Assembly: GCF_025558585.1 (NCBI RefSeq)
Contig: NZ_CP094723.1
Location: 1,426,001-1,490,000, forward strand
Origin: Staphylococcus sp. IVB6214
Lineage (GTDB): Bacteria; Bacillota; Bacilli; Staphylococcales; Staphylococcaceae
Reading direction: 5' to 3'
Length of the DNA: 64,000 nt
The notes under the pieces were generated by a model. That model saw nothing but the letters and a program-made list of their open reading frames with translations. It was not told where the DNA came from and searched no databases. Positions 13,353-25,720 of the stretch are shown here, piece by piece; within the stretch, counting starts at the first letter, position 1, and each line of letters starts with the position of its first letter. Both the position numbers and the translations under genes were made by a program.

Positions 13353-14756
13353 TTATTCTCCATTCAATAACTGTCGTTTTAATTTACCTGTACTTGTATA
13401 AGGTAAAGATTGTACGTACTTGATTTCTTTAGGTAATTTATATTTTGCGAGATGCCTTGATAAATAATCAAACATCTCTGCTTCATGCGATGTTCCTACA
13501 AGATAAAGAATTGGACGTTGCCCCCAGTAATCATCTTTGACACCGACACACATCGCATCTACCACATCAGTATGTTTCTTAGCAATACGCTCAATTTCAT
13601 TCGGATAGATGTTTTCACCACCACTGATAATCAAATCTTTGCGTCGATCATGTATGATGACAAAACCATTTGTATCAATACTCGCAATATCTCCTGTCAT
13701 GAAGAACCCATCTTCATCAAACGTTTCAGTCAAACCTTTAGGATAAAGATACCCTCGCATTACATTATCCCCACGAACACATAACTCCCCATGTCCATTC
13801 TGATTCGACTGACTGATTTTAAGCTGTGAATCAAACTTACCAACAGCTTCTGGGTTTTTAGCTAATAACGCTGGACTTGCTGTTAAAAACTGTGAACACG
13901 TCTCTGTCATACCGAATGAATTATAGATTGGGAGTTCATATGACAACGCCTGCATCACAAAGTCGCGTTCCAACTTTGCACCACCGAGTAATATTTTTTC
14001 AAGTGCATAAGGTCTTGTTAGTCCCGCATGCATCAATCGTTTTAACGTTAATGGCACTAAAGACATATGCGTAATATTTTTATATTTTATTGCATTCATT
14101 ACTTGTTGTTCATCAAATCTATCCATTAAATAGACTGTGAAACCATATAATACACTACGAATTACTATACTCAGTCCTGAAATATGATAAATGGGCAACA
14201 CCGTCAACCAACGTGTCTCTTTGTTAAAACCTAAATCAGACCAACATCTTTTCGCACTCGCTTTGTGGTTTAAAAAAGTTTGAGGGACTGCTTTTTGCGT
14301 GCCTGTTGTTCCCGATGTAAACATAATCGAAGCAATTGCTGTTTCATCGAATTCTGGTGAATCTGATGTTGCTTCATAATCCAACACATCTGAAGAAGTC
14401 AGACATTGAAATTGTTGTGACAGTTGTGTTTTCCTACAACGTGATTGATACTTATCACTTACTATAATTGTTTTAACATCAATTGATTTCATTTGTTTTA
14501 TAATTTCTTCATCTGTCAAACGATTGTTAATGAGTGCTATTTCAATATTAAACAACCATGCACCATGTATTAACGCCAGTGACTCTAATGAATTATCAAC
14601 AAGTAATCCTAAACGTTTGTCGTTCAACATCGTAAGACCACTTCCATATTGCAATGCAATCTCAAACAATTGTTGAAAGGACAACTGCTGATGCTCAGTC
14701 TCCACAGCAATTGCATTCGGTGTTTTCTTTACACGTTGTATCAGCCAAGACTCCAT
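13353..14756 (-). CDS. menE: o-Succinylbenzoate-CoA ligase
   Basis: A 467-aa acyl-adenylating (ANL) enzyme. It has the AMP-binding loop IMFTSGTTGTQKAVPQTF, the YNSFGMTETC core, MTGDIAS, and a C-terminal TSTGKLKR Lys motif. It activates o-succinylbenzoate for ring closure by MenB in menaquinone synthesis. Start at 14756 (MESWLIQR) is chosen for TTGGAGGAAG; a longer in-frame extension lacks a ribosome-binding site. First gene of a menE-menC operon. Confidence 0.93.
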   Translation of the reverse strand: MESWLIQRVKKTPNAIAVETEHQQLSFQQLFEIALQYGSGLTMLNDKRLGLLVDNSLESLALIHGAWLFNIEIALINNRLTDEEIIKQMKSIDVKTIIVSDKYQSRCRKTQLSQQFQCLTSSDVLDYEATSDSPEFDETAIASIMFTSGTTGTQKAVPQTFLNHKASAKRCWSDLGFNKETRWLTVLPIYHISGLSIVIRSVLYGFTVYLMDRFDEQQVMNAIKYKNITHMSLVPLTLKRLMHAGLTRPYALEKILLGGAKLERDFVMQALSYELPIYNSFGMTETCSQFLTASPALLAKNPEAVGKFDSQLKISQSNQNGHGELCVRGDNVMRGYLYPKGLTETFDEDGFFMTGDIASIDTNGFVIIHDRRKDLIISGGENIYPNEIERIAKKHTDVVDAMCVGVKDDYWGQRPILYLVGTSHEAEMFDYLSRHLAKYKLPKEIKYVQSLPYTSTGKLKRQLLNGE

Positions 14757-15147
14757 GTTTCTTCCTCCAAAATAATGTTCCCTTTTTATTATAGACACAA
14801 TTGAAAGCGAATGCATGATTTTAGTTTCATTTGATATAAAAAATTATATGATACAGACACACATTATTAATCTTAAATACATTTTAAGTAGATACCCTAG
14901 TATTTCTGAATTTTGATAGCTATCATCTACATTCTTTTAAATATTAAGTATCATTTTAAATTATTTCAATAAATCATATTGCCTCGCTCTACATAAATCT
15001 ATATAATATTAACGAAAATATCAGCTTTAGTCTAAATCGCAATATGACAATATTTAATTAATGTTTGATTCTTTTAAACTTTAAAATTTCGGAATATTCT
15101 TAAATATATTTCGTTTATTTAATATAATATTGATAGGAGAAAAAATT
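14757..15147. other. AT-rich intergenic stretch at the left edge of the accessory island
   Basis: About 390 bp of very AT-rich DNA with no convincing frame. It contains short palindromes such as GATAGCTATC but no recognised element. It presumably holds the promoters of menE and of the Ltp-repeat gene. Confidence 0.5.
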
Positions 15148-15726
15148 ATGTCAAACGACACAACAAATCAAAATTTCAATCCTACTAGAAAGATTGAGCA
15201 ACAAGTACAACCAAGTAAGGAAACATCTTCAAATTCTAAGAAATGGTGGCTATGGGGCTGCGGTGGTTGTGGTGGCTGCCTTGTTATCATCATTATTCTC
15301 AGCGTTGCATTCACTTTTTTAGCTGGCGCTATTATGGATAATGTCGATGAAGAACTCCAAAAAGATCCGATTATACAAAGCTCGCCTTTAAAAACAGATG
15401 ATAGTACAGGTCATAAGGGAGTAAAAAGCGAAAAAGAAAGAGCGCTCGACCAAGCAAAAATCTATTCAGACGACCTTTATATGTCAAAAGAAATGATTTA
15501 TCAAACATTGACATCGAATGATGGAGATAAATTCCCAGCAGATGCCGCACAGTATGCCATTGACAACTTACATGCCGATTACAAACAGAATGCAGTGAAA
15601 AAAGCTGAATCATATGCCAATGATATGAACATGTCGAAAAATGAAATTTATGATCAACTCACATCACCTTATGGCGAATTATATACGCAGGAAGAAGCAC
15701 AATACGCCATCGACCATATGAAATAA
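15148..15726 (+). CDS. Membrane protein with two Ltp (superinfection-exclusion type) repeats
   Basis: A 192-aa protein. A polar N-terminus (1-30) precedes an unusual Trp/Gly/Cys-rich stretch (WWLWGCGGCGGC) and a membrane helix (to about residue 60). The outside part carries two helix-turn-helix repeats, ALDQAKIYSDDLYMSKEMIY and AVKKAESYANDMNMSKNEIY, each ending in AQYAID. These match the Ltp domain named after the phage TP-J34 lipoprotein, which blocks injection of superinfecting phage DNA. Unlike Ltp it is helix-anchored, not a clear lipoprotein. ATG at 15148 follows AGGAGA. Phage exclusion is inference. Confidence 0.75.
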   Translation: MSNDTTNQNFNPTRKIEQQVQPSKETSSNSKKWWLWGCGGCGGCLVIIIILSVAFTFLAGAIMDNVDEELQKDPIIQSSPLKTDDSTGHKGVKSEKERALDQAKIYSDDLYMSKEMIYQTLTSNDGDKFPADAAQYAIDNLHADYKQNAVKKAESYANDMNMSKNEIYDQLTSPYGELYTQEEAQYAIDHMK

Positions 15727-15735
15727 CACAAATCA

Positions 15736-15769
15736 TACAAGCCCACCTATCCTATTAGGCGGGCTTGTA
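15736..15769 (+). terminator. Hairpin after the Ltp-repeat gene
   Basis: TACAAGCCC and GGGCTTGTA form a strong stem extended by one mismatch. The T-run is poor, so it may be a weak terminator or an RNA-stabilising hairpin. Confidence 0.5.
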
Positions 15770-15820
15770 CAATATTGAATATTTAAATATTATTATTTAC
15801 CACTATATAGAGAACTGATC

Positions 15821-15886
15821 GCATATCCCACATGTAAAATGTGTGGCGTTATATGAATCTCGAGGGTTCGAATCCCCCCATCTTCC
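15821..15886 (+). pseudogene. Degenerate tRNA-Ser copy (anticodon arm to 3' end)
   Basis: The last 28 nt (TCTCGAGGGTTCGAATCCCC onward to CATCTTCC) match the T-arm and acceptor of tRNA-Ser(GGA) at 18245-18332, with one substitution and one inserted C. Upstream a CACAT/ATGTG hairpin aligns with the anticodon arm, but the 5' half is unrecognisable. It cannot fold as a functional tRNA. It is inverted relative to the intact tRNA, so it is not a simple direct attachment-site duplication. Confidence 0.65.
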
Positions 15887-15956
15887 ATTAAACTTTAGTT
15901 TGTATTAATGGGCTCCCTTATTTTCAAATGCACACAAATGAAGGTGTGAGATTTGT

Positions 15957-16154
15957 TTATTTATCATCCAGTTGCATTTGATAATTGTATAGTTTTTCAG
16001 CAGTATCTAATGTGATATTGCCAATCTTACGTTTTCCAGATCGTAATTTCGAAATTGTCTTACTGATTACATTTGTTACTTGTGAAATTTTATAATGTGA
16101 TATATCGGAGTCTAATAACTTTTCAATTTCTTTTCTGATCAAATACCTTTTCAT
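15957..16154 (-). CDS. Small XRE-like helix-turn-helix protein, 65 aa
   Basis: A short protein with an HTH pattern (ISHYKISQVTNVISKTISKL) followed by a GKRKIGNITLDTAEKLYNYQ tail. It is clearly related to the 61-aa protein at 16955-17140 (shared tail RxGxRK...LYNYQ..L-DK). Such mini-repressors are common on staphylococcal plasmids and islands; the target is unknown. It flanks the CRISPR remnant on the left, its paralogue on the right. Confidence 0.55.
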   Translation of the reverse strand: MKRYLIRKEIEKLLDSDISHYKISQVTNVISKTISKLRSGKRKIGNITLDTAEKLYNYQMQLDDK

Positions 16155-16331
16155 ATTGATCTTAGTGAGATATTTACTGTAACCATCACATATTTTGAAA
16201 TCATCACGATAAATATTTGAATAGATACATTATTTTTTTTGAATGTTTAGTTTCTTAAAAGATTCAAGGCTGAATAATTAGCTTCATAAAACTGTAATTT
16301 TTTCTTTTATACACAAATAACATATCCATTA

Positions 16332-16433
16332 TACCGTCTGAGCTCAAAAATGACAGAGTACTAAAACAACTAAACTTGAAGACGAATGTCGGCATAGGTT
16401 TCACTCATACCTAAAATTACAGAGTACTAAAAC
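16332..16433 (-). CRISPR. Orphan type II-A CRISPR remnant: one repeat, one spacer, degenerate terminal repeat
   Basis: Minus strand: a complete 36-nt repeat at 16433-16398 starting GTTTTAGTACTCTGTAATTT. A 30-nt spacer at 16397-16368 follows, then a repeat at 16367-16332 that keeps only GTTTTAGTACTCTGT and partial 3' identity. The repeat's first 30 nt agree with the S. aureus Cas9 (type II-A) repeat as I remember it. The degenerate last repeat fixes the orientation and puts the leader at higher coordinates, where a TATAAT box lies about 20 nt before the first repeat. No cas gene or tracrRNA is visible in the window. Confidence 0.85.
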
Positions 16434-16916
16434 CTCTAGCTTCATTATACTCTAATTTTTTCGGTAGTTCAGCTTTTATTTCTATTAATAACATATCAAA
16501 CTATAAATCTTCTACATAGTTATTGCGTATTTGTGCCATGAAAATCTTTAAATAATACAATCAGTTAAAGTGTTCTTTCACTAAATTATGAAGAACAACA
16601 GACTCTTGGGATTTTAACAGTGGTAAACACAATTATTATGATTATGTATTTGTCTATTATTAACACAATCACACTTTATACAAGCCTTTGGTGTGGACAA
16701 AATTTTTCCGTAAACAACCGTATAAAGCCGACTATACACTTTTACATCTTTCTCTACCTAAATAACTTTAATATACTATTATACTTAGGATCATCATGTC
16801 TTCACTCGATTTTTTGTTTAGGTATTTAAAATAATAGAAACATGAGTATATTTGTATATTAAAATAGTCAGTCGGGATTGCATTTAATGCTGCTATCCCA
16901 CCACAAAAGGTGTACA
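16434..16916. other. Gene-free stretch, former CRISPR leader/cas side
   Basis: This AT-rich region has no credible coding frame; the frames present lack ribosome-binding sites. It begins with the CRISPR leader. At 16868-16915 it carries a segment (TCCCACCACAAAAGGT) that recurs near 58638, so part of it is a dispersed intergenic repeat. Confidence 0.5.
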
Positions 16917-16954
16917 TCCAAAACACCCCACCCAAATGAATGAGTGGGGGTTGG
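16917..16954 (-). terminator. Terminator of the 61-aa HTH gene
   Basis: On the minus strand AACCCCCACTC pairs with GGGTGGGGTGTT and is followed by T residues, immediately behind the stop codon. Confidence 0.65.
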
Positions 16955-17140
16955 TTATTTATCTTCCAGTTTCTTTTGATAGTTGTACAAAGCAACGCCT
17001 TTTTCAAAACTGATGGTCTCTAATTTTCTTTCACCACGACGAATACGTCTTATTGAAGATGCATCGACACCTGTATTTTTCTGTATGGTAGTTGCATCAA
17101 TATCAGATTGTATCAATTTTTTTGTTGTTTCTATTATCAT
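16955..17140 (-). CDS. Small XRE-like helix-turn-helix protein, 61 aa
   Basis: Sequence MIIETTKKLIQSDIDATTIQ then NTGVDASSIRRIRRGERKLE forms a helix-turn-helix, followed by LYNYQKKLEDK. It is a paralogue of the 65-aa protein at 15957-16154. A 31-aa hydrophobic peptide gene lies 25 nt upstream in the same direction, so the two may form a small unit. No function is known. Confidence 0.55.
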   Translation of the reverse strand: MIIETTKKLIQSDIDATTIQKNTGVDASSIRRIRRGERKLETISFEKGVALYNYQKKLEDK

Positions 17141-17165
17141 ATTTTTACATGAACAGGCTATCAGA

Positions 17166-17261
17166 TTATTTGAAAATCATATAAAATGCACACAATAACG
17201 CTATCACACCAATAGTGTAATTTAAAACAATCTTAATTTTCGTTTTAGTAATATTTGTCAT
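17166..17261 (-). CDS. Small hydrophobic peptide, 31 aa
   Basis: ATG at 17261 is preceded by GGGGTGATATAA. The peptide is a basic N-terminus (MTNITKTKIKIV) plus one membrane helix (YTIGVIALLCAFYMIF) and a final Lys. It is too short for many gene callers. Its position directly upstream of a mini-HTH gene recalls toxin/regulator pairs, but I recognise no family and the pairing is inference. Confidence 0.4.
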   Translation of the reverse strand: MTNITKTKIKIVLNYTIGVIALLCAFYMIFK

Positions 17262-17546
17262 TTATATCACCCCATATTTTAATTAGGTTGAAAGAGATTA
17301 AATCCTCAACTATCTTTTGATTATTGAAGCAATTGTCGCAATCCCTAAGCAGTATTTTCGGAAGGTTCTGCTTTTAGATTCAGCGATACTTGTTTCTTTT
17401 TTGTTTTCTTTCTAGCCTGTTCACGTTTTCACCTCCTATATAGTTATAATTTTAAAGGACAATCGTCCTTTTTTCAACGCTTTTTCTAAAGTTTTCCTAT
17501 TTTTTTATTAAAAATAACCGCACCAGTTAAGGTGAATATCCATTAC

Positions 17547-17741
17547 TTAAAATGCTTCTGCTTCTTCTTTTATCTCTTCAAACATAACATTTACACCGGT
17601 ATCACTTTTAATAACAATACACTGCCCATTATCACAATGTATCATAGTTACAACGTCATACGTATCACTGTTGTTGAATGTTACTAACTCTCTTTCAGAT
17701 AATTTACTTGTTGATTCTACTTTAATTTTATATTTTTTCAT
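17547..17741 (-). CDS. Hypothetical protein, 64 aa
   Basis: A small acidic cytosolic protein, MKKYKIKVESTSKLSERELV at the N-terminus and CIVIKSDTGVNVMFEEIKEE at the end, probably a small beta-barrel-like fold. A ribosome-binding site (GGGGC) is present but not ideal. Found in the island between the truncated recombinase and the mini-HTH genes. Function unknown. Confidence 0.45.
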   Translation of the reverse strand: MKKYKIKVESTSKLSERELVTFNNSDTYDVVTMIHCDNGQCIVIKSDTGVNVMFEEIKEEAEAF

Positions 17742-17792
17742 ATGGTGCCCCTTTTATTAAAAATCGCAAATTTCAAGTTTAAGTTAGCCACT

Positions 17793-18140
17793 TCAACCAA
17801 ATAAACTATGCATAGATGTTAGCCGATTTGAACCCCTAACGTGCAACAAATAGCGCTTAAATTTCTCAATATCATCAGGGCTTAGGCTCAAAAAATTATC
17901 TAATAATTCAGGTACACAATCAACTAAAAAATAACGAAAAACCTTCAGCTCTTCATTGTAGTACCTTATTGTTTCATCGCTCAAACCACGTGCTACACAC
18001 CTATCAATAAATTGTTTACTCAAGGTATCAAACTTTTCTTTTTTTATCTGATTTATCTTCTTTTCTTTATCAAAAAAGCCTTGTAACAAATCAAGCTCAT
18101 CTTTTGATAAATCAACGTTTCTGACTACTTTTTTCATCAT
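17793..18140 (-). pseudogene. Truncated tyrosine recombinase/integrase (N-terminal part only)
   Basis: About 115 residues remain. After a charged N-terminus the segment LSKQFIDRCVARGLSDETIR followed by YYNEELKVFRYFL and DIEKFKRYLL has the form of the core-binding (SAM-like) domain of phage-type integrases. The frame then ends; no catalytic domain with the R-H-R-Y residues follows. It points away from tRNA-Ser(GGA), whose 3' end is 105 bp away, the usual place for an island integrase. ATG at 18140 follows AAGGATG. Probably non-functional. Confidence 0.65.
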
Positions 18141-18244
18141 TATCACATCCTTATTTTTAAGATATAATAATGAGCAAAACAAAAAGGCTTATACCACACA
18201 CCATGTAAAATCGAGTAGTGTAGCATAAACCTTTCAAACCTTAC

Positions 18245-18332
18245 GGAAGATGGGGGATTCGAACCCCCGAGACGCTTGTGGCGCCTACACACTTTCCAGG
18301 CGTGCTCCTTCGGCCAACTCGGACAATCTTCC
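18245..18332 (-). tRNA. tRNA-Ser(GGA)
   Basis: An 88-nt type II tRNA with a variable arm. The anticodon loop CTGGAAA gives anticodon GGA. It borders the accessory island and is the likely integration target. Confidence 0.93.
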
Positions 18333-18378
18333 AAAACAATGACAAAAAATCAGAAGCGATATTTCGCTTCTGATTATA

Positions 18379-18450
18379 TGACCCCTACGGGACTCGAACC
18401 CGTGTTACCGCCGTGAAAGGGCGGTGTCTTAACCGCTTGACCAAGGGGCC
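18379..18450 (-). tRNA. tRNA-Glu(TTC)
   Basis: Clear cloverleaf; the anticodon loop CTTTCAC gives TTC. CCA is not encoded. Confidence 0.93.
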
Positions 18451-18451
18451 A

Positions 18452-18526
18452 TGGCTCCACAGGTAGGACTCGAACCTACGACCGATCGGTTAACAGCCGA
18501 TAGCTCTACCACTGAGCTACTGTGGA
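18452..18526 (-). tRNA. tRNA-Asn(GTT)
   Basis: Anticodon loop CTGTTAA gives GTT. The 3' CCA is encoded. Confidence 0.93.
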
Positions 18527-18536
18527 ATAATTAAAA

Positions 18537-18610
18537 TGGAGCGGGTGATGGGAATCGAACCCACAACATCAGCTTGGAAGGCTGAGGTTTTGCCATTAAA
18601 CTACACCCGC
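18537..18610 (-). tRNA. tRNA-Gly(TCC), canonical
   Basis: Anticodon loop CTTCCAA gives TCC. It has the normal GTTCGATTC T-loop, unlike the two glycine tRNAs at 58742-58901, so it is the translation-type tRNA. CCA encoded. Confidence 0.92.
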
Positions 18611-18623
18611 ATAACAACGATAT

Positions 18624-18698
18624 GGGCGGTTGATGGGAATCGAACCCACGAATGTCGGAACCACAATCCGATGCGTTAACCACTTCGCCACAACCGCC
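18624..18698 (-). tRNA. tRNA-His(GTG)
   Basis: Anticodon loop TTGTGGT gives GTG. The extra 5' G (G-1) typical of tRNA-His is encoded, opposite C73. Confidence 0.92.
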
Positions 18699-18711
18699 GT
18701 AATATAAGAAA

Positions 18712-18784
18712 TGGTTCAGGACGGAATCGAACCGCCGACACAAGGATTTTCAGTCCTTTGCTCTACCGACTGAGCTACTGAACC
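18712..18784 (-). tRNA. tRNA-Phe(GAA)
   Basis: Anticodon loop CTGAAAA gives GAA. First gene of the 247-bp block that is repeated exactly at 59425-59671. CCA is not encoded in this copy. Confidence 0.93.
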
Positions 18785-18791
18785 ATAATAA

Positions 18792-18868
18792 TGGCGGTCC
18801 CGACGGGAATCGAACCCGCGATCTCCTGCGTGACAGGCAGGCGTGTTAAACCGCTCCACTACGGGACC
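18792..18868 (-). tRNA. tRNA-Asp(GTC)
   Basis: Anticodon loop CTGTCAC gives GTC; CCA encoded. Lies inside the duplicated block. Confidence 0.93.
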
Positions 18869-18879
18869 ACTCAAAAATA

Positions 18880-18953
<74 letters not shown>

Positions 18954-19202
18954 ATAATGTTATTTAAAAGCAATTACTTAATTATATTATCACTTTAACA
19001 ACAAAGTGTCAATATATTTCTTGTAACTTTTTTATCTTTTTATTAAACAGATAAATAAATGCGTCCAATAAAATCAATGACCTACTCATTATATAGTTAC
19101 ATAATTAAAAGGTCAACAGTTCTCCAACTAGTATTTTGTATAAATACTCACCTTTTCGGCATTAATTGAATTAATGTAGCTTAATGTACTAAAAATATCA
19201 TT

Positions 19203-19313
19203 AATATAAAACGCCCAAGGTTCTGACGGAGGATGAGTCATACCTTGGGCGTTTTGGAATCGAAACATAATTAGGAAAATATCATTTTCATACCGATAGT
19301 TTTATAACTATCT
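19203..19313 (-). ncRNA. Candidate small regulatory RNA with anti-Shine-Dalgarno loop
   Basis: A strong promoter (19320-19348) would start a transcript of about 110 nt that ends at a perfect 14-bp terminator stem (AAAACGCCCAAGGT and its complement, 19208-19255). The terminator loop is closed by an inner TGAC/GTCA helix and exposes TCATCCTCC, complementary to GGAGGATG, that is a Shine-Dalgarno next to a start codon. A GATAGTT hairpin lies near the 5' end. No credible ORF is present. I do not recognise it as a named RNA. Confidence 0.6.
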
Positions 19314-19319
19314 AAAAAC

Positions 19320-19348
19320 ATTATATTTAGGTTCGCCTAAAATTTCAA
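19320..19348 (-). promoter_or_regulatory. Promoter with an operator-like inverted repeat, driving the small RNA
   Basis: TTGAAA (19348-19343), a 17-nt spacer and TATAAT (19325-19320). The spacer is filled by TTTAGG-TTCG-CCTAAA (19326-19341), a perfect 6-bp inverted repeat. Its form resembles DtxR/MntR-type metal-repressor boxes from memory, so metal-dependent repression is a testable inference. Confidence 0.6.
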
Positions 19349-19371
19349 GTGATTAGTATCAATTTTTCTAT

Positions 19372-19944
19372 TTAGTCAAATTTTTGTAAGATTTTATTCT
19401 TCAGAAATAGGAATGCATCGTATCCATCTTCCTTACAAAAATGACCGCCTGTGTCTAATTCATATAACTTACAATCTAATGCTTCACAAAGTTTTTCAGT
19501 TGCTTCTATTGGTACAACATAGTCATCTTTAGCAGCTACGCCAAACATGTGAAGTACTTTATTATGTAATAATTCATAGTCTAGTTCCCAGTTGAAGAAA
19601 GAATCGAGTACTTCTTGATCGGGTAATAGATCATTCTGTGGTAAGTCTCCTTTAAAACCGGATATCATGGCTAAGCTACCTACTTTGGAGACATCGAGCT
19701 CTTGTATGAATTTTAATGTTGTTACTACACCTAAGCTATGTGCAATAAATATTGTGTCATTATTCACTTCAGTGATATGTTCTTTCATATACGAAACCCA
19801 TTCACTACCATTTGGGCGATTCGTATTGGGTAAATCGAGTACTGTAACTTGATGCCCTTCGATTTCTAAAGTTCTTTTTAACCAAGGAAACCAATGATCT
19901 CCACTATTTGCTTGGTATCCGTGTACAATATAAACATTCGTCAT
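19372..19944 (-). CDS. RBBP9/YdeN-family serine hydrolase
   Basis: A 190-aa alpha/beta hydrolase without signal peptide. Features are YIVHGYQANSGDHWFPWL at the N-terminus, the nucleophile elbow IAHSLGVVT (Ser about 79), an Asp near AAKDDYVVP and a catalytic His in TGGHFCKEDG, all as in the RBBP9/YdeN family. Substrates of bacterial members are unknown. It is monocistronic; the promoter region of the candidate small RNA begins just after its stop. Confidence 0.85.
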   Translation of the reverse strand: MTNVYIVHGYQANSGDHWFPWLKRTLEIEGHQVTVLDLPNTNRPNGSEWVSYMKEHITEVNNDTIFIAHSLGVVTTLKFIQELDVSKVGSLAMISGFKGDLPQNDLLPDQEVLDSFFNWELDYELLHNKVLHMFGVAAKDDYVVPIEATEKLCEALDCKLYELDTGGHFCKEDGYDAFLFLKNKILQKFD

Positions 19945-20125
19945 GGTAAAGCCCCCTAGTCCAATCTATATTTATATCATATCATACGTTAAAGTATTAT
20001 TGCGTTTCTGCAAATAGTTGTACATAATTTGTCGAATTTTCTTAATTTTCAACCTATTTGTTGTCTAAAATTAAAAGTAGCATCTCATGACCCTTTTTAG
20101 ATCATGGACGCCACTTAGATTAACA

Positions 20126-21529
20126 TTATCGAATACGCGGTAATAAATTTTCAACCGCTTTGTATGCTTGACTAATACAATCTGGTAAACCGACCGCTTC
20201 AAACGGTGCCCCAGTTATTTGTAAATGCTGATAGTTTTCTAAAAGATGTTGTTGAATTTGTTTAATTTTATCAATATGTCCGACATGATATTGTGGACTG
20301 GCATACGGCATTTTGTTTACGATTGTAAATTCTGGTTCACCTTTGAACGTCATCATTTGTTCGAGATCACGGCGTGCAATTTGAACGAGTTCTTCATCTG
20401 TTTTCTCATTCACGATATTATCGCCTTGTTTACCCACATATGCACGTATCAATACTTTTCCTTCAGGCGTTGTATGTGGCCATTTTTTCGAAGTCCATGT
20501 GCAAGCAGTAATATCCGTTTGACTTGTTCTTGCAATAACAAATCCAGTTCCGTTATGAATATTTTCAATATCTTCTTCATCAAATGCAAAGACAATAGTT
20601 GCAACGGATGATGCTTCTAATTCATTAAAATAATCAAACATCGGATCCTTTTCAAACCATTGACGGAAGACTTGATGTGGTGTTGCGATAATCACACCAT
20701 CATAAAATGGGCGTGAATCAGCATCAATCTCAATATGATATCCCTTCTGAGTTGAGGTTAAATCTTTAACTTGGGTGCGATATTGTATTGAAACATCATG
20801 ATCAACCAACCATGTCTCCATATGCTCAATAAAGTCATAAAGTCCACGTCTAAATTGTTTAAATTGACCTTGTGCACCACTTCGACGTTGATCTTCTTTT
20901 TCCAAACGAGCTTTTCGCACTTGTTGCATCCCTTTTATGATGCTACCATGTGTCTCTTCAAGCGATTTGAAGTGTGGGAATGTACTCATTAAACTCAATT
21001 CATCAATATCCGTACCATAGATACCACTCAATAGTGGTTCAATTAAGTTCTCTAACAATTCATCACCTAAACGCTCACGAAAAAAAGCACCAACTGACAT
21101 ATCTCCTTCAGGCATATCCACAGGCTTAATCGTTAAATCTTTTAATGCACGTAACTTCCCTTTCATGGAAATTAATTGCGTCGTCATAAATGGCTTAATA
21201 TCGGTTGGCACGCCTAAAATGGCACCGCCAGGAATAGGATACAATTCATTATTCGCAAAAATATACGATTGACCTGTTTCATTTGTCACGATATCTTCAT
21301 CTGCAATACCGATATCTTTTGCCACATCAGTCATAATCGTCTTACGGCCTAAATACGATTCGGGGCCAAGCTCAATCACATATCCATCTCGATATGCAGT
21401 TTTAATCTTACCACCTGGTCTATCTGTTGCTTCATAAATGGTAACGTCTGTATCTGGATAATGTTTTTTAATAAAATACGCACTCGTTAAACCCGTGATT
21501 CCCGCACCAACTATTGCTACCTTTGTCAT
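20126..21529 (-). CDS. hemY: Coproporphyrinogen III oxidase CgoX (formerly HemY)
   Basis: A 467-aa FAD enzyme beginning MTKVAIVGAGITGLTSAY with the Rossmann GxGxxG and YEATDRPGGKI. It ends with the FAD-binding ITGAPFEAVGLPDCI. In Firmicutes it oxidises coproporphyrinogen III to coproporphyrin III. It is the third gene of hemE-hemH-hemY, with the start overlapping or abutting the hemH stop. Several ATGs lie close together; I chose the one giving MTKVAIV, with 21532 and 21538 as alternatives. Confidence 0.93.
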   Translation of the reverse strand: MTKVAIVGAGITGLTSAYFIKKHYPDTDVTIYEATDRPGGKIKTAYRDGYVIELGPESYLGRKTIMTDVAKDIGIADEDIVTNETGQSYIFANNELYPIPGGAILGVPTDIKPFMTTQLISMKGKLRALKDLTIKPVDMPEGDMSVGAFFRERLGDELLENLIEPLLSGIYGTDIDELSLMSTFPHFKSLEETHGSIIKGMQQVRKARLEKEDQRRSGAQGQFKQFRRGLYDFIEHMETWLVDHDVSIQYRTQVKDLTSTQKGYHIEIDADSRPFYDGVIIATPHQVFRQWFEKDPMFDYFNELEASSVATIVFAFDEEDIENIHNGTGFVIARTSQTDITACTWTSKKWPHTTPEGKVLIRAYVGKQGDNIVNEKTDEELVQIARRDLEQMMTFKGEPEFTIVNKMPYASPQYHVGHIDKIKQIQQHLLENYQHLQITGAPFEAVGLPDCISQAYKAVENLLPRIR

Positions 21530-21534
21530 CATTC

Positions 21535-22473
21535 TCACGCTTTCTTATAAATGTTAGAAATTTCATCAATAATTGCACCGATAAATAAAGGGTGTGTATC
21601 AGGCATTGGTGGACGATGATACGTTGCGCCCACTTCGTCACAAACAACTTTACATTCATAATCATTGTCGTATAAAACTTCAAGATGTTCTGCAACAAAG
21701 CCAAGTGGTGTATAAATAAAATGTTTACAACCTAACATATGATGCAATTCACGTGTTAAGTCCTGAACATCAGGTGCAAGCCATGGTGTCCCGGTATTCC
21801 CCGCTGATTGCCAACCCACCGAAATATGTTTCAACGGAATATGTTCAGCAATTAGTCTTGCTGTTTTTGATATTTGTTCCGGATAAGGGTCGTTACTCTC
21901 TAAAATCATTTTTTCCGGCAAGCTGTGTGCAGATACAACAAGCATGGTTTTCGCATGTTCCTCAACCGGTATATTTTCAAGTACTTCATTAATGCGCATT
22001 GACCAATAATCAATGAATTTCGGCTGTTCAAAATAACTATTAACATGATGTAACGTTATACCGAATTCATCAGCTTTTTCCTTCGCACGTTTATTATAAG
22101 AACCAATCGAAAATCTTGAATAATGTGGCGCTAATACAACCGTTACTGCTTCTGTAATACCATCTTTATACATCTGCGATACTGTATCTTCAATAAATGG
22201 ATGAATGTGTTTCAAACCGATATACAATTTAAATTCAATATCTTTATATAAGCCACTCTCATTAAGCACATTGACTAGTGCCTCTGCTTGACGTTCGGTT
22301 GTACCCGCCAATGGAGATAAACCACCAATCGCTTCATATCGTTGTGTGAGATCATCTAATTCTTCCTGACTCGGCTTTCGTCCATGTCTGATATCCGTAT
22401 AATACGGTTCAATATCACTTTTTTTATATGGCGTGCCGTAAGCCATCACTAACAAACCAACTGTTTTAGTCAT
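21535..22473 (-). CDS. hemH: Coproporphyrin III ferrochelatase CpfC (HemH)
   Basis: A 312-aa protein inserting iron into coproporphyrin III. Signatures are LLVMAYGTPYK at the N-terminus, VLAPHYSRFSIGSY with the active-site His, VVSAHSLPEK, and WQSAGNTGTPWLAPD. Middle gene of the hem operon, 37 nt after hemE. Together with hemY it belongs to the coproporphyrin-dependent heme route; the last gene, hemQ/chdC, is not in this window. Confidence 0.94.
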   Translation of the reverse strand: MTKTVGLLVMAYGTPYKKSDIEPYYTDIRHGRKPSQEELDDLTQRYEAIGGLSPLAGTTERQAEALVNVLNESGLYKDIEFKLYIGLKHIHPFIEDTVSQMYKDGITEAVTVVLAPHYSRFSIGSYNKRAKEKADEFGITLHHVNSYFEQPKFIDYWSMRINEVLENIPVEEHAKTMLVVSAHSLPEKMILESNDPYPEQISKTARLIAEHIPLKHISVGWQSAGNTGTPWLAPDVQDLTRELHHMLGCKHFIYTPLGFVAEHLEVLYDNDYECKVVCDEVGATYHRPPMPDTHPLFIGAIIDEISNIYKKA

Positions 22474-22510
22474 CTTCTATCCGTCCTTTACATACACGTA
22501 TTCAATCTTA

Positions 22511-23548
22511 TTATTTTGCCGTATAGTCGTGTACAAATTGTGCGACACGTCTCAATGTGTCTGGTGATACTTCCGGAAATACACCGTGTCCTAGATTAAA
22601 GATATGCCCCCCAGTATGTACCATACCTTGATCTAAGATAGGTTTAAGTCGCGCTTCGATTACATCCCAAGGTGCAAGTAGGATACTTGGATCTAAGTTC
22701 CCTTGTACTGTTTTGGTTACACCTTGTCGCCCTGCTTCACTGATAGATGTACGCCAATCAAGACCTAAAACATCAATAGGCAATTCATGCCATGCATCAA
22801 TTAAATGACTTGCCCCTACACCAAATAAAATGACAGGTGTATTTAATGCTTTAATGCCTGCGACTAACTTATTCATACACGGTTGAATATAATATTTATA
22901 ATCTGATTCATTCAGTGCACCAACCCAAGAATCAAAAATTTGAATAATTTGTGCACCTGCTTCAACTTGTCCTTTTACATATGTAATCGACATATCTGCC
23001 AGTGTATCCATTAACTTGAACCATGTCGCTTCGTCACTGTACATCATCGCTTTTGTTTTATTGTAATTCTTTGAAGGCCCACCTTCTATCATATAACTGG
23101 CTAAAGTAAACGGTGCACCCGTAAAACCAATAAGTGGCACATTTAACTGTTCTTGTGTGAGTATCTTAATCGTATCTAAAACATAAGGGACATCACGTTT
23201 TGGATCAATTTGTCCAAGTGCTGTGACATCAGAATATTGACGAATCGGGTTAGAAATCACAGGTCCAATACCCGACTTAATCTCAACATCGACGCCAATT
23301 GCTTTAAGTGGTGTCATAATATCTTTATATAGCACAGCAGCATCTGTATTATATTGATCTACCGGTAACTTTGTCACATAAGCACAAATTTCCGGTTGAT
23401 GTGTGATATCAAATAATGAATATTTTTCTTTTAACTTTCGATATTCTGGTTGAGAACGACCTGCTTGGCGCATAAACCAAACTGGTGTATGCGTAGCCTG
23501 TTCCCCTTTGATTGCTCGCAACATTGTATCGTTAAACGTATTATTCAT
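22511..23548 (-). CDS. hemE: Uroporphyrinogen decarboxylase
   Basis: A 345-aa enzyme decarboxylating uroporphyrinogen III to coproporphyrinogen III. Signature [19 protein letters not shown] is present near the N-terminus, as are [13 protein letters not shown] and the C-terminal NLGHGVFPE. Start at 23548 (MNNTFNDT) is set by CAAGGAGGAC; the frame extends further upstream without a signal. First gene of hemEHY. Confidence 0.95.
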
Positions 23549-23928
23549 GTCGTCCTCCTTGACTGTAATCATTCTTTTCTAGATTAGCACACTTACATTA
23601 AAGAACTCTGTGAAAATGGTGTTTAACACAAAAGTTTAAAATGAATTGTTAAAATACTATCATGACCTAAAATGAAAATAAATGGATGCTTTTCTCTATG
23701 TATGTCATACACCGTCAATTATATCATGTTGAAATGAAAAGCGTCTAAGTATGAATTCTCTATATTTTAAAAATAAATACCATTAAAAATGATAAAACTA
23801 AAGGCTTAATCCGCTTACAAATCAATCTATATAGTTGTCCACATCAAGATTTCAGATTCACTTTTCAAGATTTAAGGTATATGATGGAAGTAGCTTTTAC
23901 ATAAAAAGATGAATATAGGAGGATTTAA
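23549..23928. other. Divergent intergenic region between hemE and traP
   Basis: About 380 bp, AT-rich, with no ORF of note. It must hold the hem operon promoter and the traP promoter. I found no Fur-like box and no riboswitch. Confidence 0.5.
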
Positions 23929-24453
23929 ATGAACTTTTTCATTACTTATGGCACATTAAGCTTTTTACAACAAATTCAAAACAAACATGAAGACCGTAAC
24001 TTGCTTATTTTTGCAGGTGAAGGTCAAGCAATCATATTGGAAGAGACAGATTTAGATACCATTTTTCAACAGCCGAATGAATATCGTGTAATGTCACGTA
24101 CTGGTGATCTATCTGAATCTGATTTTCAAGTTTTAATTACGATTCCGACTTCTGAAGATCATAAATATCAACTAGAAAAACAATTAGAAACTTATCAGCC
24201 AGCTTTAGATGAAAATCCAGACTACCATAGCTATCGCTTGTTGAAATCCACACATCAAAATGTCTATAAAGTACTTCTTGGTTTTACTACTAGAAATGCT
24301 TATGATGATTATAAAAAATCAAGTGCTTTTCGCAATAACTTATCATTAGAAGCAACAAAACCTTTAGCAGGTGCATCTGCTGTACATACACCTTATATCG
24401 AACAATACTTCTATCCAAGTCAGGATGTCTCTGAAGAAGAAATTGACCTGTAA
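23929..24453 (+). CDS. traP: TRAP / HmoB-like heme-degrading-fold protein
   Basis: A 174-aa protein similar by eye to S. aureus TRAP (target of RNAIII-activating protein): FFITYGTLSFLQQI, IPTSEDHKYQLEKQLETYQP, SYRLLKSTHQNVYKVLLGF and a YFYPSQD end. The C-terminal half is an antibiotic-biosynthesis-monooxygenase (dimeric ferredoxin-like) fold shared with heme mono-oxygenases such as Bacillus HmoB. Its place divergent from hemEHY fits a heme role better than the disputed agr role. AGGAGG site at ideal spacing. Confidence 0.85.
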   Translation: MNFFITYGTLSFLQQIQNKHEDRNLLIFAGEGQAIILEETDLDTIFQQPNEYRVMSRTGDLSESDFQVLITIPTSEDHKYQLEKQLETYQPALDENPDYHSYRLLKSTHQNVYKVLLGFTTRNAYDDYKKSSAFRNNLSLEATKPLAGASAVHTPYIEQYFYPSQDVSEEEIDL

Positions 24454-24460
24454 TATAAAT

Positions 24461-24501
24461 GAAACCCACCGCATTCAAATTCGAATGATTCGGTGGGTTT
24501 T
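24461..24501. terminator. Terminator between traP and ecsB
   Basis: AAACCCACCG and CGGTGGGTTTT form a strong stem that can act for both convergent genes. Confidence 0.85.
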
Positions 24502-24505
24502 ATGA

Positions 24506-25720
24506 TTAATCTCGTAATAAAGATTCTTTGTATTTTAATTTTTTGATCGTGCGATGTATTGTCGCATAACTTACTATGAATAACAAGACGATAAGGTAAC
24601 CATGTTGAATATTAAACACTAAATACACGACACTCAACACGCCTGCCATGACACTTGTTGTAGCTGTTAAAAATTTTTGATATCCCTGTATGACAAGCGC
24701 TTCAGATGGGGGCCAAACTTGCGGCCACAATCCATAAGCTTCTTGCGTGTAAAACTGTGACATTTGTAATACTAAAATGTACATCGCCAAGCAACCGATC
24801 ACGACGCTAACATACGGGTGATTTAACCACGACATAAGTAATATTGTAATCACTACAAGTCTTAATGTCAGATTAAAGGCATCTTTTCCACGTAAAAAGT
24901 TACGCTTGAATAAAAATGGGTACATCGCAGCTTCGTGAAACGATTTTGGTGTTGACAGCAAGAAGTCCAAGTAACGTCTTCGAACGGCACGTTCTTGCAA
25001 ACCTTTCACATCCGTAAACATACTTACAAATTTATAGTAATTCGCCTGATGTTGGTGTGCTTGTTTTATTAAGAAAGTCCACGGTAAGTGGTGTTGCTTC
25101 GTTAATTTCTGTAAAAATACAGCGAGTATAATAAGCGCAATCGGTGCACCGAAACTGTGTGAACTGCCTGATGCGAACATGACATAAATGGCTGACATAT
25201 TTAAAATGCCCAATATCAGATTAACTGACCAGGCTTCTAGTCCATATAGAAACCAATACCACTTCACAAATAAACCCACTAGCGGTAATAGTAGCGTGAA
25301 TAAACATACAACAACAAACTGAGATGTTTGATTCGGTGCTAACGCATGTATTAACGGATATGCGATCACTAGCAATACGACTTGCAATGGCAATCGTTTG
25401 TAATAACTCGTCCAAATACTTTTTTGTATATACGCTTTCATTTGTGATTCAAAGGGTAATAAAAAGAGACTATCCGCTTCGACTAAATATGTTTTTAACG
25501 GGAAAATAGAACTCATCGCTAATATAATTGAAATAAGTAAAAAATAGTTAATGCCAGTTGGTATGTCTTTCAACCATTCCCCATATCCGAGAATGAAAGC
25601 ACCGATAAGAATGACCAAAAAGACAGTAAAATGCCCATTAAAAATAAATTTATTATAATATTGTGCCTCTTTGAGCTTTGCACGATGTCTTTGGTTAAAA
25701 AGTTGTTTCGCTGTCATCAT
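24506..25720 (-). CDS. ecsB: ABC transporter permease EcsB
   Basis: A 404-aa protein with about eight hydrophobic segments, starting MMTAKQLFNQRHRAKLKEAQ. It is the membrane partner of EcsA. Its start codon overlaps the ecsA stop (ATGA), showing translational coupling. In Bacillus and staphylococci EcsAB affects protein secretion and regulated membrane proteolysis; the transported substrate is not settled. Confidence 0.9.
   Translation of the reverse strand: MMTAKQLFNQRHRAKLKEAQYYNKFIFNGHFTVFLVILIGAFILGYGEWLKDIPTGINYFLLISIILAMSSIFPLKTYLVEADSLFLLPFESQMKAYIQKSIWTSYYKRLPLQVVLLVIAYPLIHALAPNQTSQFVVVCLFTLLLPLVGLFVKWYWFLYGLEAWSVNLILGILNMSAIYVMFASGSSHSFGAPIALIILAVFLQKLTKQHHLPWTFLIKQAHQHQANYYKFVSMFTDVKGLQERAVRRRYLDFLLSTPKSFHEAAMYPFLFKRNFLRGKDAFNLTLRLVVITILLMSWLNHPYVSVVIGCLAMYILVLQMSQFYTQEAYGLWPQVWPPSEALVIQGYQKFLTATTSVMAGVLSVVYLVFNIQHGYLIVLLFIVSYATIHRTIKKLKYKESLLRD

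Follow-up and report, generated by a model that had tools for sequence, protein, structure and literature searches.

A putative MntR-repressed small RNA predicted to silence sodA in animal-associated staphylococci

What is encoded at positions 19203–19348 of the minus strand, between a serine hydrolase gene and a cluster of tRNA genes? We analyzed this interval within the window, the whole 64,000-nt stretch of DNA under study, and compared it with other genomes of the genus Staphylococcus and its order. The results point, with considerable confidence, to the gene of a trans-acting small RNA (sRNA) of about 110 nt that would be repressed by MntR and would silence sodA when manganese is scarce.

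The sRNA gene and its surroundings

We examined the architecture of the locus on the minus strand. The -35 hexamer TTGAAA (19348–19343), whose TTG is invariant in the 14 aligned members of the family described below, is followed by a 17-nt spacer and by the -10 hexamer TATAAT (19325–19320), which was found by both the promoter scan and the promoter-plus-box pattern. This promoter matches the consensus at 11 of 12 positions and is one of three sites with 11 matches within 14000–25000. The spacer contains an MntR-type operator, TTTAGG-CGAA-CCTAAA (TTTAGGCGAACCTAAA, 19326–19341). Based on the usual -10 spacing, the transcript is predicted to start near 19313. Its predicted fold begins with a 5' hairpin (19295–19312) that recurs with divergent sequence in the predicted folds of many members and is absent from the consensus structure. 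A near-invariant core, UAUUUUCCUAAUUAUGUUUCGAUUCC (19256–19281), follows and leads into a terminator hairpin, AAAACGCCCAAGGU...ACCUUGGGCGUUUU (19208–19255), recognized from both sequence and fold, with a perfect 14-bp stem. Its loop, UCAUCCUCC (19228–19236), is the exact complement of GGAGGAUGA, the Shine-Dalgarno (SD) sequence of sodA. Our terminator scan, which accepts loops of at most 8 nt, did not list this hairpin, whose loop is longer.

The 112-nt RNA folds with a predicted energy of −36.7 kcal/mol (z = −6.70), a value reached by none of 200 shuffled sequences, and the CCUCC of the loop has a predicted unpaired probability of 1.00 in the window's RNA. No ORF of at least 50 aa was found within the sRNA, and no Rfam family reached its gathering threshold at the gene. 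A small peptide starting at the ATG of the core was rejected, since a 1-nt indel in the core shifts the frame of this ATG between members. With its own promoter and terminator and without a conserved ORF, the locus shares these features, as far as sequence can indicate, with the trans-acting anti-SD sRNAs. A preliminary description of this stretch had listed the promoter hexamers and their 17-nt spacing, the spacer palindrome, and the 14-bp stem with its loop, all of which are present; its proposal of an unrecognized sRNA, with about 110 nt free of ORFs, stands as a prediction.

Upstream and on the same strand, the serine hydrolase gene (Pfam PF06821, 19372–19944) ends 23 nt before the -35 hexamer and serves as the syntenic marker of the locus. 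Downstream lie the tRNA genes from tRNA-Met to tRNA-Glu (18379–18953, minus strand), followed by tRNA-Ser (18244–18332). Several further features were observed in this part of the window. A match to the Rfam sRNA family S774 (18934–19032, minus strand; 59.4 bits) overlaps both a tRNA gene and a promoter-like site (TTGACA-17-TAATAT) that precedes the tRNA cluster, and may therefore be just a tRNA leader in this genome. Adjoining tRNA-Ser, a 129-aa ORF (17793–18182, minus strand) gave a weak match, under the curated cut-off, to the SAM-like domain at the N terminus of phage integrases; it is perhaps what is left of an integrated element. Two further ORFs, of 65 and 61 aa (15957–16154 and 16955–17140, both on the minus strand), are similar to each other, resemble small DNA-binding proteins by eye, and gave only chance-level Pfam matches.

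Conservation of the gene and its MntR-type box

To describe the distribution of the sRNA, we searched 84 Staphylococcus genomes. A blastn search with 176 bases gave matches in 15 of them, 14 of which, including the window, were true members; a 26-bp match without a hydrolase neighbor (L015) was dropped as chance. The promoter-plus-box pattern, which required the arms of the box, was found at 16 sites in the 84 genomes and at none in the reversed control. Fifteen of these sites were sRNA members, adding one (G019, L045) to those detected by blastn, and the other (L050), inside an rpoB-like reading frame, was dropped. The sRNA unit is thus kept in 15 of the 84 genomes, always beside the same serine hydrolase gene. 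tRNA genes lie nearby in 11 of the 15 members; none occur in the examined stretch of L003, L010, L013, or L014, the last of which is cut by a contig end. The hydrolase gene is present without the sRNA element in five closely related genomes, and among hydrolase loci of non-bearers, 14 of the 30 fetched were inspected and no box was seen in any.

A covariance search in other staphylococci, as the preliminary description had suggested, was conducted with a model of 14 members; G037, whose contig ends in the terminator, was left out. The model recovered its 14 source members by construction and, in addition, G037. Under stricter filters, which lose weak matches, there was no other strong match in the 84 genomes of the genus, and none in a set of 157 genomes from 14 genera of the order, Staphylococcus included. 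The sole other match with an E-value under 0.01, in G060 (E = 0.0078, 31.2 bits), is doubtful; like one in G014 (27.8 bits), it has no MntR box in the printed stretch and looks like a chance terminator. A match in G071 was judged by eye to be coding sequence. Seven bearers could be named by identical sequence in a collection scan: S. americanisciuri, S. canis, S. coagulans, S. rostri, S. intermedius, S. microti, and S. cornubiensis. We take these species to represent the intermedius-hyicus group.

Within the RNA, the most constant part is not the loop but the 26–27-nt core before the terminator (UAUUYUCCUAAUnAUG...GAUUCC). In the terminator stem, 5 of 11 consensus pairs stay paired through changes on both sides. 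The loop is less constant: nine of the 14 aligned members have CCUCC, and L003 and L010 have CUUCC or CUCC; in L007, L009, and L011, the motif is weak or missing.

All 15 members share the arms TTAGG and CCTAA without change, whereas the central 4 nt take eight forms. Fixed arms around a variable center are the behavior of a palindrome read by a protein; the arms were imposed by the pattern search, but the 14 blastn members were found without that requirement. The palindrome alone is not rare, with one perfect site in the window's genome and 96 places with at most two mismatches, compared with 123 in the reversed control. What is rare is the palindrome directly followed by TATAAT, which accounts for the 16 sites noted above.

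The sole perfect box in the window's genome is that of the sRNA promoter, and three other places carry one mismatch. One of these, TTTAGGTTTACCTAAC (L018), has its mismatch at an outer position, retains the full TTAGG-N4-CCTAA, and lies between mntABC and mntR, a metal ABC transporter operon divergent from a gene for a DtxR-family regulator. NCBIfam matches there are MntR- and MntA-like, below the curated cut-offs. This region is located at about 0.37 Mb and the sRNA at 1.445 Mb in the same genome (G000). Another one-mismatch box (L017) is inside a sulfate-permease-family frame. The third, TTTAGGACATGCTAAA (L019 1501–1516; G000:C1:1902139-1902154), precedes a CopC/CopD-type gene by about 120 nt, indicating that boxes with one mismatch are not confined to MntR targets.

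In S. aureus, mntABC together with rsaC, the source of the manganese-responsive sRNA RsaC, has been published as being under MntR control (PMC9294342, PMC12421985). The literature passages searched contained no printed sequence of a staphylococcal MntR box, and the consensus used here was read from the mntABC-mntR regions rather than from a published consensus. Two RsaC-bearing genomes (L274, L275) carry TTTAGGCTAACCTAAT, with the form TTTAGG-N4-CCTAAT, in the mntABC-mntR intergenic region. Because the box of the sRNA has the same form as the mntABC-mntR box, both here, with one outer mismatch, and in these two genomes, predicted control of the sRNA by MntR is well supported. The operator overlaps the promoter in all 15 members, the sequence feature expected of the staphylococcal MntR regulon. 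The likeness to DtxR/MntR-type boxes, to which the preliminary description had pointed, is borne out by these comparisons.

Predicted pairing with the sodA leader

We examined sodA as a candidate target because it is a known target of RsaC. The sodA leader in the window's genome reads UUGGAAUCAACAAUUAGGAGGAUGAUUAAUU-AUG. Using RNAduplex, 22 consecutive nucleotides of this leader, GGAAUCAACAAUUAGGAGGAUG, were predicted to pair with the core over the ribosome-binding site, G-U pairs included, with two 2-nt bulges on the sRNA side. The sites of the loop and the core on sodA overlap, and simultaneous pairing is excluded there. Over 10 distinct pairs, the core–sodA pairing averaged −19.7 kcal/mol, compared with −10.9 kcal/mol (sd 1.8) after permutation of the core columns; 1 of 3,000 permutations was as low.

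To rank targets, we used for every species the same background of 385 leaders, taken from 400 kb of the window's genome plus the window. With the window's own core, sodA ranked 2 of 386; the cognate sodA of each species came within the first four in 12 of the 14 species, and in the remaining two it ranked 10 and 20. Summation over the 14 species put sodA at rank 2 of 386 with the core and at rank 61 with the loop; core and loop together gave it rank 1. The rank by loop alone ranged from 2 to 367 of 386 between species, its contribution being weak in several, and folding the whole sRNA with each leader placed sodA 6 of 386. Neither GGAGGATGA near the start codon nor GGAATC followed within 2–8 nt by TTAGGA occurs in any of the 385 sampled leaders, and sodA contains both. 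The preliminary description, which named no target and did not mention the core at 19256–19281, had proposed a translational silencer whose working part is the loop, with GGAGGATGA as its partner. That partner proves to be the SD region of sodA, and the silencer holds as a prediction; the main conserved pairing element, however, is the core, and the anti-SD motif of the loop is lacking or weak in several species.

Other candidate targets were also sought. In a scan of five genomes with the exact 10-mer ATTAGGAGAA, no gene came up repeatedly with the match over its ribosome-binding site. Across 15 genomes, 24 places matched a wobble-tolerant 14-mer; 12 of these places were the sRNA genes themselves, and three others that were inspected lay inside coding regions. 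The leader of an ORF beginning MALTAGIVGLPN (L213), ychF-like by eye, scored better than sodA when summed across cores (−280.9 versus −271.4), with this one leader scored against all cores, and its gene is a possible further target.

The SD stretch UUAGGAGGAUGA of the core–sodA match occurs in 44 of 45 sodA leaders, with or without the sRNA, and duplex energy therefore separates bearers from non-bearers poorly: the non-bearers G015 (−21.7) and G064 (−20.3) form stronger predicted duplexes with the core than do many of the bearers. A second element is more restricted. The invariant GAUUCC of the core faces a GGAAUY in the sodA leader, where GGAAUC, or GGAAUU in G011 and G030, sits 4–5 nt upstream of the SD stretch. 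GGAAUY was present in the sodA leaders of all 15 bearers and in 2 of 30 non-bearers, a chosen part of 69 (Fisher p = 3.9e-10, ignoring kinship).

On the sodA tree, both of these non-bearers, G052 and G071, branch among bearers. G052 groups with the bearer G022 (support 91/65) inside a well-supported bearer fork, and neither an sRNA nor a hydrolase match was found in its assembly. G071, a complete genome that forms the sister of the clade containing the window, retains GGAAUC (L244); its stretch after the hydrolase is present, with no box or sRNA seen. Both cases would fit loss of the sRNA, or an assembly gap, after an earlier gain. Genomes with GGAAUY and the sRNA cluster on the tree, and an independent-pairs test that considers kinship yielded three pairs, one agreeing and two without difference, a number that cannot reach significance; with only three such pairs, the correlation of GGAAUY with the sRNA is not proven beyond descent.

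Based on these elements, the following course of regulation can be proposed. When manganese is plentiful, metal-loaded MntR on TTTAGG-N4-CCTAAA between the -35 and -10 hexamers would block transcription. When manganese is scarce, MntR would leave the sRNA promoter together with that of mntABC, and the sRNA would be made and end at its own terminator. In species that keep the loop, UCAUCCUCC may make the first contact with the sodA SD GGAGGAUGA, after which the core would pair progressively with GGAAUC...AUUAGGAGGAUG and so cover the ribosome-binding site. The expected outcome is that SodA synthesis is switched off and manganese is spared. In the predicted folds, the window's loop is fully open, and in several members part of the core is base-paired. 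This would agree with initial contact through the loop in those species that retain it; the only partial single-strandedness of the core is at the same time a weakness of the model.

Alternative explanations and relation to RsaC

How else might the locus be read? The sRNA could be genuine and MntR-controlled with its main targets among other messages, sodA being one of many ribosome-binding sites that an anti-SD core and loop would meet. We consider this unlikely, even though the core also scores well against other sampled leaders and the loop alone gave sodA only its summed rank of 61. Known sRNAs offer precedents, in that RsaC possibly regulates further genes (PMC9294342) and IsrR is predicted to target several mRNAs (PMC9410917). 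What speaks for sodA is that the invariant GAUUCC lies outside the anti-SD part and faces a GGAAUY that is largely group-specific, and that core plus loop put sodA first among all leaders.

To the idea that the locus is no separate gene, and that the hairpin is the terminator and 3' UTR of the upstream hydrolase message with an incidental promoter-like sequence, we give very little weight. Promoter and box stand at fixed spacing in every member, with no such site in the reversed control over 84 genomes, the core is conserved far beyond the need of a terminator, and five close genomes carry the hydrolase without the element. In its favor, the short same-strand distance from the hydrolase end to the -35 hexamer contains no terminator in the scan, and sRNAs derived from 3' ends are known, RsaC among them (PMC9438474). 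A hydrolase 3' UTR mode could also coexist with a separate sRNA gene. Finally, the RNA may be real and the palindrome read by another regulator or by iron-loaded MntR/SirR, so that it answers to iron or another signal; SirR of S. epidermidis has been described as Fe- or Mn-responsive (PMC1764749, PMC2628430). This seems scarcely probable, given that boxes of the same form lie at mntABC-mntR in this genome as well as in two RsaC-bearing ones, and that the predicted target is an Fe/Mn-family SOD, with SOD [Mn] as its best match, below the curated cut-off of that model. Our preferred reading remains an MntR-repressed sRNA directed at sodA.

We then compared this sRNA with known systems. The LhrC family of Listeria has C-rich pairing sites, one of them in the terminator loop, that bind ribosome-binding sites. 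It differs by its regulator, described as LisR, and comparison with the new sRNA through Rfam at threshold gave no match. IsrR of staphylococci, which has C-rich stretches as well, answers to Fur and iron, in contrast to the MntR-type box found here. As in IsrR and RyhB-type systems, a metal-repressed sRNA is predicted to shut off metal-using proteins (PMC9410917). A manganese-dependent sRNA has also been described in Acinetobacter (PMC11796373). SR1 (RF02376) showed a weak overall likeness (24.0 bits, E = 0.012) and was rejected, because this is far below its gathering score of 45 and the alignment consists mostly of A/U-rich letters and the terminator; rli38 and other Rfam near-matches were also below threshold and rejected. 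RsaC is the sRNA linked to MntR in Table 1 of a 2022 review (PMC9294342). Among the titles and abstracts of freely accessible journal papers that were searched, RsaC, IsrR, and others appear, and none is recognizable as the new sRNA, which is apparently undescribed.

The closest functional likeness is to RsaC. For the new sRNA we predict the same control by MntR, expected action in manganese starvation, and targeting of sodA (PMC9294342, PMC9438474, PMC12421985). The two differ in origin: RsaC is a 584–1116-nt piece cut from the mntABC mRNA by RNase III (PMC9438474), whereas the new sRNA has about 110 nt and its own promoter, is encoded at a different locus, and had no detectable sequence relation to RsaC. 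The RsaC model RF01818 reached its cut-off in 4 of the 84 genomes of the genus, and weakly matched 2 more, with no match in the window, the window's genome, or any of the 15 bearers. We regard the four RsaC-bearing genomes as the S. aureus complex on the basis of PMC9438474, which reports RsaC as conserved in S. aureus and S. argenteus; in them, the covariance search for the new RNA gave no strong match (E = 0.56 in G004 and 0.54 in G059). The new sRNA would be an independently evolved analogue of RsaC.

The two groups also differ in their SOD genes. S. aureus has SodM as a substitute SOD (PMC12421985), and the two RsaC-bearing genomes among the 30 non-bearers each gave two Sod_Fe_C genes, the second presumably being SodM. 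Every one of the 15 bearers showed a single Sod_Fe_C gene, which is no special trait of theirs, since 28 of the 30 non-bearers gave the same count.

On balance, we lean toward the view that a manganese-sparing anti-sodA sRNA was invented at least twice in staphylococci, in the S. aureus complex as RsaC, a fragment of the mRNA for the manganese importer, and in the intermedius-hyicus group as a short stand-alone RNA. In the latter group, its target would be the sole Fe/Mn-type SOD detected, with no SodM as a substitute, and the sodA leader would have gained a dedicated GGAAUY docking element. If this is true, bearers would go without an Fe/Mn-type SOD while starved of manganese, and silencing of sodA under manganese starvation would be useful enough to have evolved twice. 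Species without SodM would then separate the idea of manganese sparing from that of SOD swapping, which are intertwined in S. aureus.
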